Source: a bacterium
GTDB taxonomy: Bacteria; Desulfobacterota; Deferrisomatia; Deferrisomatales; BM512
Length of the DNA stretch: 64,000 nucleotides
Assembly: GCA_004322275.1 (NCBI GenBank)
Contig: SCTA01000019.1
Coordinates: forward strand, 1 to 64,000
Reading direction: 5' to 3'
The translations under genes were made by a program, and so were the position numbers. Positions 16,698 to 60,479 of the stretch are shown piece by piece (position 1 is the first letter of the stretch; each line of letters begins with the position of its first letter). The notes below the pieces were generated by a model. That model saw only the letters and a program-made list of their open reading frames with translations, made no database searches and was not told where the DNA came from.

Positions 16698-16956
16698 GTT
16701 TAATCCTCTGAAATAACCTGATCGAAGTGTTACTGCTTGTGGGTCTGGCCGCCCCACGCCCGGCCCCACTTTTTGTCGAAAAAGTGGGACAAAACTCGGC
16801 CCGGAAGGAGCCGCTCGCTCTACGAGCGACCGGTCGCTACGGCGGGGGCGTGAGGGGGCACCCGTTCGCTGCGCTCACTAAGACCCCCCCGCCGCCCTTT
16901 CCGCCTCCGCTCCCTGCGTCACCTACGGGCCATGTGGAGGACGAAAATATGGCTCG

Positions 16957-16987
16957 TCCAAAAACAGATTAACGAAATGTTTTTGGA
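16957..16987 (+). repeat. Variable-stem hairpin H3, copy 1 left
   Basis: TCCAAAAACA (16957-16966) pairs perfectly with TGTTTTTGGA (16978-16987). It is bracketed by GGCTCG and CTCGAAGGTA, which are conserved in all four arms, whereas the stem sequence is unique to this arm. Confidence 0.8.
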
Positions 16988-17045
16988 CTCGAAGGTAGAG
17001 TTGGCTACAGCTATTTGAGATACGTGTAAACAAATTACCTTCGAG

Positions 17046-17075
17046 CACACGAGATCAAATAATCCTTCTCGTGTG
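17046..17075 (+). repeat. Variable-stem hairpin H3, copy 1 right
   Basis: CACACGAGA (17046-17054) pairs perfectly with TCTCGTGTG (17067-17075), bracketed by TACCTTCGAG and CGAGCC. The stem is unrelated in sequence to the other three H3 stems. Confidence 0.8.
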
Positions 17076-17324
17076 CGAGCCTTCTTTTCGTTCCTTTCGG
17101 GGCCCGTACGCGGCGCAACGAGTGGAGGCGTCGGGCCGGCGCGGGGTCTTAACGGAGCGAAGCGTAGTGGGTGCCCCGTACGGCCCAGCCGGAACGAAGT
17201 GGTCGCTCATAGAGCGAGCGACGCGTCCGGGCCGATTTTTTGGTCACTTCTTTCTAAAAGAAGTGACTAGGGTGCGGGGCGAAGCCCGGCAAGTTGTAAA
17301 CGGTTTTCACAAATAAATTCAATT

Positions 17325-17405: not shown

Positions 17406-17705
17406 CTAAACCAGAGAATCTATTATCTTTGCGATTTCTGAAGGAGAGAGGTTCCTTACCAGGAGGCGCTTGTTTCTGCCGGTGGAGCCGGAGGCGAGTT
17501 CGACGGAGGTTTTGGGGACTCCGAGGAGTTTGGCGAAAAAACCGGTCAGTTCCTTGTTGGCCTCCCCTTCGACGGGGGGAGCCGAGATCGCTACCGAGAG
17601 AGAATTACCGTGAAGCCCCGCTATCTTCGTCTTCGAGGAGCGGGGCTTCGCCCAGATCTCTATGATGGTTCCGCCGGGGGTCTCGGAAAGGTAGCCTACG
17701 GCCAC
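17406..17705 (-). CDS. yggU: DUF167 / YggU family protein
   Basis: About 99 residues from the proposed GTG (17703-17705) match the DUF167 family: IEIWAKPRSSKTKIAGLHG, ISAPPVEGEANKELTGFFAKLLG and SVELASGSTGRNKRLLV. Function is unknown; members often follow the yggT/divIVA genes as here. An open frame continues upstream to 17912, but its first 65-70 codons lie entirely in a repeat (17705-17932) that also occurs in non-coding DNA at 38922-39150, so they are probably not native. The insertion may have replaced the original start region; the start codon is therefore uncertain. Confidence 0.8.
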   Translation of the reverse strand: MAVGYLSETPGGTIIEIWAKPRSSKTKIAGLHGNSLSVAISAPPVEGEANKELTGFFAKLLGVPKTSVELASGSTGRNKRLLVRNLSPSEIAKIIDSLV

Positions 17706-17932
17706 AGATTGCTGACAAACCTCGTCTTTTCTCCGATTTACTTCGTCAGGCTCGAAAAACGTCCTCGAAATACCTATCGGTATTCCTCCGGTCATTTTTC
17801 TCGCCTTCCTTGTTCTCGAAGAAAATACTGTGTTTGTCGCAATCTCAGTCTGTTGACCTGATGTCCCCTTGTTGTTCTGTTTTCTGTGCAAAAAACTTCT
17901 CTTTCGCCACAAATGACTTTGTCAACAGCCTG
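17705..17932 (+). repeat. MITE-like composite repeat, copy 1
   Basis: This 228-bp unit is roughly 90 percent identical to 38922-39150. It starts CAGATTGCTGACAAA and ends TTTGTCAACAGCCTG, an imperfect terminal inverted repeat (12 of 15). Inside, TTTGTCGCAATCTCAG and CAGTCTGTTGACC look like a second, internal pair of ends, so it may be two small elements joined. It lies between divIVA and yggU and supplies an artificial N-terminal extension to yggU. Confidence 0.8.
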
Positions 17933-17948
17933 CTCTCCGGCCAAGGGT

Positions 17949-59111: not shown

Positions 59112-59804
59112 ATGAAAGTCTGGCTTACAATCGCTAGCCTAATTACATTGGGTATAAGCCTTTTGGCAGGCTTCAGTGGAAAAACTAGTGTCCTCGCTGT
59201 CGGGTTCCTTTCATTTGTTGTACTGCTGCTCATAGCAAACATAGACAGGGTCTCTGAATTCAAAGCTACTGGAACAGGAGTAGAGGCGAAGACGAGAGAC
59301 GTACTCCAACGTGCAGAGGTTACTCTGAGTGAACTTCAAGCGCTGGCAAAGCACGTTGGCATGGTAACCCTGTCACTAGTGAAGCGGAGCGGACGACTCG
59401 GAGGTTATTCGGATATAGAAGAGGAAGAGATAAAGAATTCAATTCTCGATGTAATGAAAAAAGTTGGCATACCTAACTCCGAGTGCCAAGAAGTGCTCCG
59501 TGAGTGGAACAAGTTCATTGAATACGACTATTTATTCTTTATTCTTGGAGGCAGTACCATTCCTGATGGAGATATTCCAGAAGTCCACAAAGAATGGAAA
59601 GCCTTACGTTCAGGGGGAATTGAGAAGATTCCGACATCGAAAGAAATCAAGGCCTTTCTAGAGAAACACCATTTTATGACACCGGATCTAGAACAATGGC
59701 TTCTGGATTACCAATGTTTTATTGATAAACGCATACACCGAAGACCCGAAGTTTGGCAACAGCGGCAAAGCATGGGGAGGCTTATGCAAAAAAAAGTCGC
59801 GTAG
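59112..59804 (+). CDS. Orphan membrane-anchored protein, likely horizontally acquired
   Basis: The 230-residue protein has two closely spaced N-terminal membrane segments (about 4-22 and 27-43), then a soluble domain starting with VSEFKATGTGVEAKTRDVLQRAEVTLSELQAL, a helical stretch that looks like a signalling linker. The rest is helical and charged with several Trp. No family is recognised. The base composition is clearly more AT-rich than all neighbours and codon use differs, and repeats bound it on both sides. AGAGGA precedes the ATG. A similar N-terminal layout occurs in unnamed accessory or stress-type proteins; no function is claimed. Confidence 0.75.
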   Translation: MKVWLTIASLITLGISLLAGFSGKTSVLAVGFLSFVVLLLIANIDRVSEFKATGTGVEAKTRDVLQRAEVTLSELQALAKHVGMVTLSLVKRSGRLGGYSDIEEEEIKNSILDVMKKVGIPNSECQEVLREWNKFIEYDYLFFILGGSTIPDGDIPEVHKEWKALRSGGIEKIPTSKEIKAFLEKHHFMTPDLEQWLLDYQCFIDKRIHRRPEVWQQRQSMGRLMQKKVA

Positions 59805-59854
59805 AGCGGGCTCGGCCCACCATTATTTAAAAACATTAATGTAATTATACACTT

Positions 59855-60420
59855 GCTGGGCTTCGCCCCGCGCCCCTTGTCACTTCTTTTAGAAAGAAGT
59901 GACCAAGAAATCGGCCCGGACCCGTCGCTCGCGCTTTAAAAAGCGCGACCACTTCGTTCCGGCTGGGCCGTACGGGGCACCCACTGCGCTTCGCTCCGTT
60001 AAGACCCCGCGCCGGCCCGACGCCTCCACTCGTTGCGCCGCGTACGGGCCCCGAAGGGGAACGAAAAGAAGGCTCGCAAATGAGCAAGGTAATTGTTGCT
60101 CATTTGCTCGAAGGTAGTTTCTCTACAGCTATTTTGAGATACATGTAGAAAAAATACCTTCGAGCCGATAACATAGAATTATCCTGTTTATCGGCGAGCC
60201 GTCCTTTCGTCCTTCCCGTGGCCCGTAGGTGACGCAGGGAGCGGAGGCGGAAAGGGCGGCGGGGGGGTCTTAGTGAGCGTAGCGAACGGGTGCCCCCTCA
60301 CGCCCCCGCCGCAGCGACCGGTCGCTCGTAGAGCGAGCGGAACCTTCCGGGCCGAGTTTTGTCCCACTTTTTCGACAAAAAGTGGGGCGCGGGTGCGGGG
60401 CGCGCCAAGCCCCGCAAAGG
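59855..60420 (-). repeat. Large mirror-arm palindromic element, copy 2
   Basis: This is the inverted counterpart of 16732-17293. The first part (59855-60106) corresponds to the right arm of copy 1 reversed, and the last part (60165-60420) to the left arm reversed. H3 hairpins are CAAATGAGCAA/TTGCTCATTTG (60077-60106) and CCGATAACA/TGTTTATCGG (60165-60194). The core CTCGAAGGTA (60107-60116), 38 bases, TACCTTCGAG (60155-60164) has the same length as in copy 1, and CTACAGCTATTT, GAGATAC and TGTA are shared. H1 hairpins lie at 59879-59903 and 60362-60386. Confidence 0.85.
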
Positions 60421-60447
60421 GTAAACGTGCGAAACACACAAAAGTCA

Positions 60448-60479
60448 CTGGTTTCCCGCATCCGCGGGAATGACGAAGG
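60448..60479. repeat. ATTCCC-type small hairpin repeat
   Basis: CTGGTTTCCCGCATCCGCGGGAATGACGAAGG is a TTCCCGC/GCGGGAA hairpin (one mismatch) with the same CTGG and GAATGACG flanks as the other copies. It follows the large element directly, as at copy 1. Confidence 0.65.

Follow-up and report, generated by a model that had tools for sequence, protein, structure and literature searches.

Hairpin-rich repeat half-units, solitary or joined head to head in unlike pairs, in a Deferrisomatales genome

A family of hairpin-rich half-units, each about 280 bp long, is dispersed through the genome of a Deferrisomatales bacterium (2.88 Mb in 45 contigs), and two full copies lie within the window, i.e., the 64,000-nucleotide stretch of contig SCTA01000019.1 analysed here. 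The half-units stand alone or pair head to head into imperfect palindromes of 560 bp, and in this genome the joining of unlike halves is near-strict: the two arms always differ, and the hairpins and core ends nearly always do. The family is probably a lineage-specific, non-coding, non-autonomous palindromic interspersed repeat, i.e., a giant REP/BIME-like element, which was mobile in the past.

The copies in the window were described in an earlier note as two inverted copies of one element. Both are real, with 87% identity to each other, and the reversed copy exists as claimed, although it spans 59852-60417 rather than 59855-60420 (Table 1). As had also been noted, exactly 38 bases separate CTCGAAGGTA from TACCTTCGAG in the core of each, and no gene is recognised inside copy 1 or copy 2; it was right to describe the element as structured and conserved, with no gene and with a function that cannot be read from it. 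However, the proposed fixed spacer of 38 bases does not extend to the family, in which the spacing ranges from 23 to 44 in the 28 full copies and is 7 in a second species, and the supposed single 560-bp unit is really a head-to-head pair of about 280-bp halves, which also occur alone. In principle, the intervening 43 kb could flip, as likewise suggested, but there is no sign of such flipping here. As single strands, copy 1 folds to -193 kcal/mol (vs. -107 for shuffles, z -17.8) and copy 2 to -201 kcal/mol (vs. -114, z -17.4). The single-stranded DNA fold of both is a long imperfect hairpin with a junction at its cap, and the junction of copy 1 folded alone (16951-17081, the central 131 nt) is a four-way junction consisting of a stem and three hairpin arms (z -8.7). 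No tRNA was found in the window. The 87% identity could be taken as a sign that one 560-bp segment was simply duplicated in recent times, a reading that now carries virtually no probability: it is refuted by copy number, and the genome holds unlike modules and about 94 half-units rather than just two copies. Together with the diverged family in the second species, this count also excludes the outcome that the earlier note had named against itself, i.e., two near-identical copies unconserved in relatives.

Table 1. Positions of the two window copies, their parts and the neighbouring REP-type sequences
Feature	Position	Strand	Source
Copy 1, full element, A-type half (left) head to head with B-type half (right)	16732..17293	+	
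A-type half-unit of copy 1, read toward core	16732..16997	+	
Copy 1 variable hairpin, class a (TCCAAAAAC...GTTTTTGGA), after GGCTCG (16951-16956)	16957..16987	+	
Copy 1 left CTCGAAGGTA box	16988..16997	+	
Copy 1 38-base core, two unlike inner ends, oriented the other way round in most copies with respect to hairpin a	16998..17035	.	
Copy 1 right-half CTCGAAGGTA box (TACCTTCGAG on +)	17036..17045	-	
Copy 1 variable hairpin, class d (CACACGAGA...TCTCGTGTG), then CGAGCC on + (17076-17081)	17046..17075	-	
B-type half-unit of copy 1, read toward core	17036..17293	-	
Copy 2, full element, inverted: B-type half (left), A-type half (right)	59852..60417	-	
B-type half-unit of copy 2	59852..60116	+	
Copy 2 variable hairpin, class e (CAAATGAGC...GCTCATTTG)	60077..60106	+	
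Copy 2 CTCGAAGGTA box	60107..60116	+	
Copy 2 38-base core	60117..60154	.	
A-type half-unit of copy 2	60155..60417	-	
Copy 2 variable hairpin, class b variant (CCGATAA...TTATCGG)	60165..60194	-	
CGTC-type REP adjoining outer end of copy 2	60441..60475	-	family in PMC3733652
GTAG-type REP-like sequence close to the opposite outer end of copy 2	59801..59821	+	family in PMC3733652

A search of the host genome with copy 1 returned 75 matches (one place can match both strands), and the pattern GGCTCG-n(20-50)-CTCGAAGG returned 99 matches vs. 3 for the reversed control. After the pattern loci were fetched and passed through a hairpin filter, there were about 94 half-units in ~66 places, i.e., 28 full head-to-head elements and 38 solitary halves. 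This count is approximate: 19 contig ends lie less than 700 bp from a half-unit (vs. about 1.4 expected), so the family breaks the assembly, and truncated full elements may account for some of the "solitary" halves. The closest relatives among the copies share 90-96% identity and near-identical copies are absent, so present-day movement is not shown, though identical copies may hide at contig ends.

Each half-unit consists of a series of hairpins and has a defined inner end. Read toward the core, its outer part starts with a TTTACAGCTA-like outer end, which is followed by a GC-rich hairpin (GCGGGGC...GCCCCGC), then by one of the type CACTTCTTT...AAAGAAGTG and by more stems. The inner part runs from GGCTCG through the ~30-nt variable hairpin and CTCGAAGGTA to a small hairpin resembling GTAGA-TTG-TCTAC and a TTTACAGCTA-like inner end. 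The TTTACAGCTA-like ends of a half-unit read as direct, not inverted, repeats, and the outer ends of full elements are inverted. Solitary halves have the same inner end as joined halves, followed by unique sequence. Three arm classes were distinguished, of which A and B are diverged relatives and C shares mainly the inner part. There are about five classes of variable hairpin (a-e), each of which is paired with more than one arm class, and direct CTCG repeats bracket the variable hairpin in nearly all copies. Within the arms of some half-units (L005, L007 and the units C3:21920, C8:29828 and C19:98241) there is an insertion of ~150 bp or more, GGCATCCCCGTCGGTCAA...TTGACCGACGGGGATGC-like and itself palindromic. 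At another locus (L096, G000:C25:35924-36059), where a B and a C half face each other, a GTAG-like REP together with related sequence (TGTAGGGTGCGTTAGGCGTTAGCCGTAACGCACC) apparently interrupts the core.

Among the 24 full elements with both arms typed, the pairings were AB in 10, AC in 10 and BC in 4. Like arms were thus found in 0 of 24, vs. 7.9 expected with arms shuffled (P 5e-5), and like hairpins in 1 of 28, vs. 7.4 expected (P 1e-4), both P values being only guides because the copies share ancestry and related copies were treated as independent. The one like-hairpin pair consists of visibly different hairpins that share their nearest reference. The core ends, CACGTAT-like or CARCTAT-like, are unlike in 19 of the 20 elements with both typed; in the remaining element the core is short. 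Of the 17 typed cases of hairpin a, 15 have it facing the CACGTAT-like end. Copy 1 belongs to the other two, so its core is turned round. The three arm combinations and several hairpin combinations show that the elements are not copies of one progenitor. Like halves were probably lost because their products would be near-perfect 560-bp palindromes, which are expected to be unstable. A different account of the same pattern holds that this is a new modular mobile DNA, with the hairpins as exchangeable cassettes between the CTCG repeats and with halves that join only if arm, hairpin and core end differ, which would imply a dedicated joining and shuffling enzyme, not passive loss; this account is considered quite unlikely.

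The 9-bp stem of the variable hairpin is 95.8% Watson-Crick over 82 distinct hairpins, vs. a mean of 62% and a maximum of 70% in 2000 shuffles in which the 3' sides were redealt. In the arm alignments, at least two Watson-Crick types occur in 7 of 10 variable-stem pairs in A, 7 of 10 in B and 6 of 10 in C. Such paired variation, the very strong folding and the location of 18 of the 22 callable places between convergent genes would suit a structured RNA (a 3' UTR stabiliser, terminator or small RNA), with the mirror pair serving two converging transcripts, one per strand. However, G-T pairs do not exceed A-C pairs on the strand toward the core, with 5 vs. 8 in the variable stem and 54 vs. 97 over all stems, the latter recounted on Watson-Crick-defined columns. 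A count of 73 G-T to 7 A-C, which would have pointed to a strand-specific RNA, was rejected, as the stem rule behind it tolerated G-T and stopped at A-C, and the recount reversed it slightly. Because G-T is not in excess, changes seem to involve entire hairpin blocks or to occur at the level of DNA, and not to reflect RNA-type drift on the strand toward the core; the A-C excess would fit an RNA on the other strand, read outward from the core, but weakly. In addition, no promoter-like site was found inside copy 1 or copy 2, terminator-like matches are near chance level, and Rfam gave no match at the gathering score and none at E 0.1 across eight copies. A structured RNA is thus a possible but unlikely explanation of the half-unit.

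The 22 callable places comprise 18 convergent, 3 codirectional and 1 divergent, with gene orientations called by a simple codon-based gene finder; as background, the window has 29 spacers of at least 40 bp, of which 6 are convergent. REPs are likewise reported between convergent genes (PMC3733652). The outer ends of the elements often abut GTAG-type (GTAGGGCGGGCTCGGCCCGCC) and CGTC-type (CGTCATTCCCGCGAAAGCGGGAATCCAG) REPs, i.e., members of super-families described in the same study (PMC3733652). Four facing half pairs enclose 0.9-2.4 kb of unlike genes, and no transposase lies within any of the facing pairs examined. One of the enclosed genes, for an Mrr-nSTAND3 protein (L092:689-2953), is a possible defence gene. 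Another possible defence gene, for an HSDR_N protein (L094:1933-3096), lies between two half-units of the same orientation. The enclosed genes, the Mrr-nSTAND3 gene included, and the direct TTTACAGCTA-like ends recall recombination sites bounding exchangeable gene cassettes, like integron attC. However, nothing is enclosed by the 28 full elements, the core length is variable (23 to 44), and, of the five tyrosine recombinases in the genome, none is tied to the element or identified as an integron integrase, which makes a role as attC-like sites very improbable. In the window, a second and unrelated interspersed repeat occupies 17700-17940, in the 5' part of a DUF167 ORF; its translation has ~85 matching places in another genus of the same taxonomic family (G003, L137-L139), and the repeat is absent at the orthologue in G001.

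In a DNA search of 99 genomes, the family was found in this genus alone. The core pattern occurs in 2 of 395 genomes of the phylum, which are the same two element-bearing species, and is absent from the 393 others. With spacers of 30-60, the pattern gave 4 hits in the genome contigs of 84,980 species (own genome possibly left out), all in unrelated taxa and taken as chance, and none in viral contigs. The family is thus confined to one genus in the sample searched. The second species keeps the skeleton GCTCG-[hairpin]-CTCGAAGGTA with other hairpins (CAAATC..GATTTG, CGCTTCGCG, CCGGAT..ATCCGG) and short AAATTT cores of 7 bases between the boxes, and arms and hairpins are unlike in the few full elements seen there. 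A solitary half lies beside tatC in this genome and is missing beside tatC in the second species; in the ychF neighbourhood, both species have an element, with a different arrangement and not at exactly the same place. At the DUF167 site, the left neighbour differs in the second species, and there is no clean empty-site comparison. The conservation of the CTCGAAGGTA box in two species and the many copies between convergent genes could also mark a chromosome-organising site, either protein-binding or a supercoil-absorbing cruciform. That function is judged very unlikely, as no binding protein was identified, many copies are solitary or truncated, and none was found beyond the genus in the genomes searched.

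No mobilising enzyme was identified in searches for Y1_Tnp, tyrosine recombinases and reverse transcriptases. Y1_Tnp (PF01797, RAYT) was not found in either element-bearing genome (G000, G001), with control genomes positive, and occurs once each in two relatives that do not carry the element; a RAYT was accordingly rejected as the present mobiliser. The five tyrosine recombinases of this genome are Phage_integrase matches, one of them cut by a contig end. A single reverse transcriptase, split over two frames (contig C8, L161:858-2118), has no counterpart in the four closest relatives searched, the second species included, and was set aside as a shared mobiliser on the grounds that the second species has none. 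The flanks of eight elements were inspected and show no clear target duplication.

A past-mobile, giant REP/BIME-like repeat could have arisen as follows. An enzyme that acts on folded single strands, supplied in trans and now lost or unrecognised, would have spread the half-units; such action has been proposed for REPs (PMC8266576). Recombination between copies, in the core, may then have reshuffled arm, hairpin and core modules into new pairings, from which like-half products would have been lost as unstable palindromes, and selection against damage to genes and promoters would have left copies between convergent genes. For REP dimers, a preference for heterodimers has been noted without an obvious explanation, and protection of heterodimers from SbcCD has been suggested (PMC3733652). 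The units here are ~10x longer than REPs, and their classes are easily distinguished. In this genome the rule has almost no exceptions, and the few full elements seen in the second species show the same tendency, so that purging of like palindromes becomes directly testable. The family also poses the question of how large hairpin units spread in genomes without a detected RAYT.

The REP dimers of the GTAG and CGTC super-families (PMC3733652) are the closest comparison in several respects: they are palindromic, extragenic and present in many copies, they join in opposite orientation, they occur as singletons and dimers between convergent genes, and heterodimers are favoured in several REP families. 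The present family similarly has many extragenic singletons and inverted dimers (38 solitary, 28 pairs) in convergent or codirectional places (18 + 3 of 22 callable). However, a REP is one hairpin of 20-40 bp that carries a GTAG or CGTC tag, whereas the unit here is ~280 bp with several hairpins, recalls the tag only in the small GTAGA-TTG-TCTAC-like inner-end hairpin, and shows no like pairs; REPs of both kinds sit at the outer ends of the element, not as the element. BIMEs and REPINs share the mosaic combination of motifs, alternating orientation and non-autonomy, but they are tied to RAYT genes, i.e., to a cognate Y1_Tnp that neither element-bearing genome was found to hold, and their units are much shorter. 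TIRYT, the TIR families of tyrosine transposases (PMC3733652), comprise longer repeats, some of them partly self-complementary, which form dimers or clusters, but they flank a Y1 transposase gene, of which none was found here; the inverted repeat of the Y1 gene in a relative (G002) is of the GGGGTCAGG type and does not resemble this element. MITEs are short, gene-free, dispersed and hairpin-forming as well, but here no clear target duplication is recognised at the eight elements inspected and the half-unit ends are direct rather than inverted. Thus, the family works like REP/BIME in placement and dimer logic, and it is not a member by unit size or RAYT possession.
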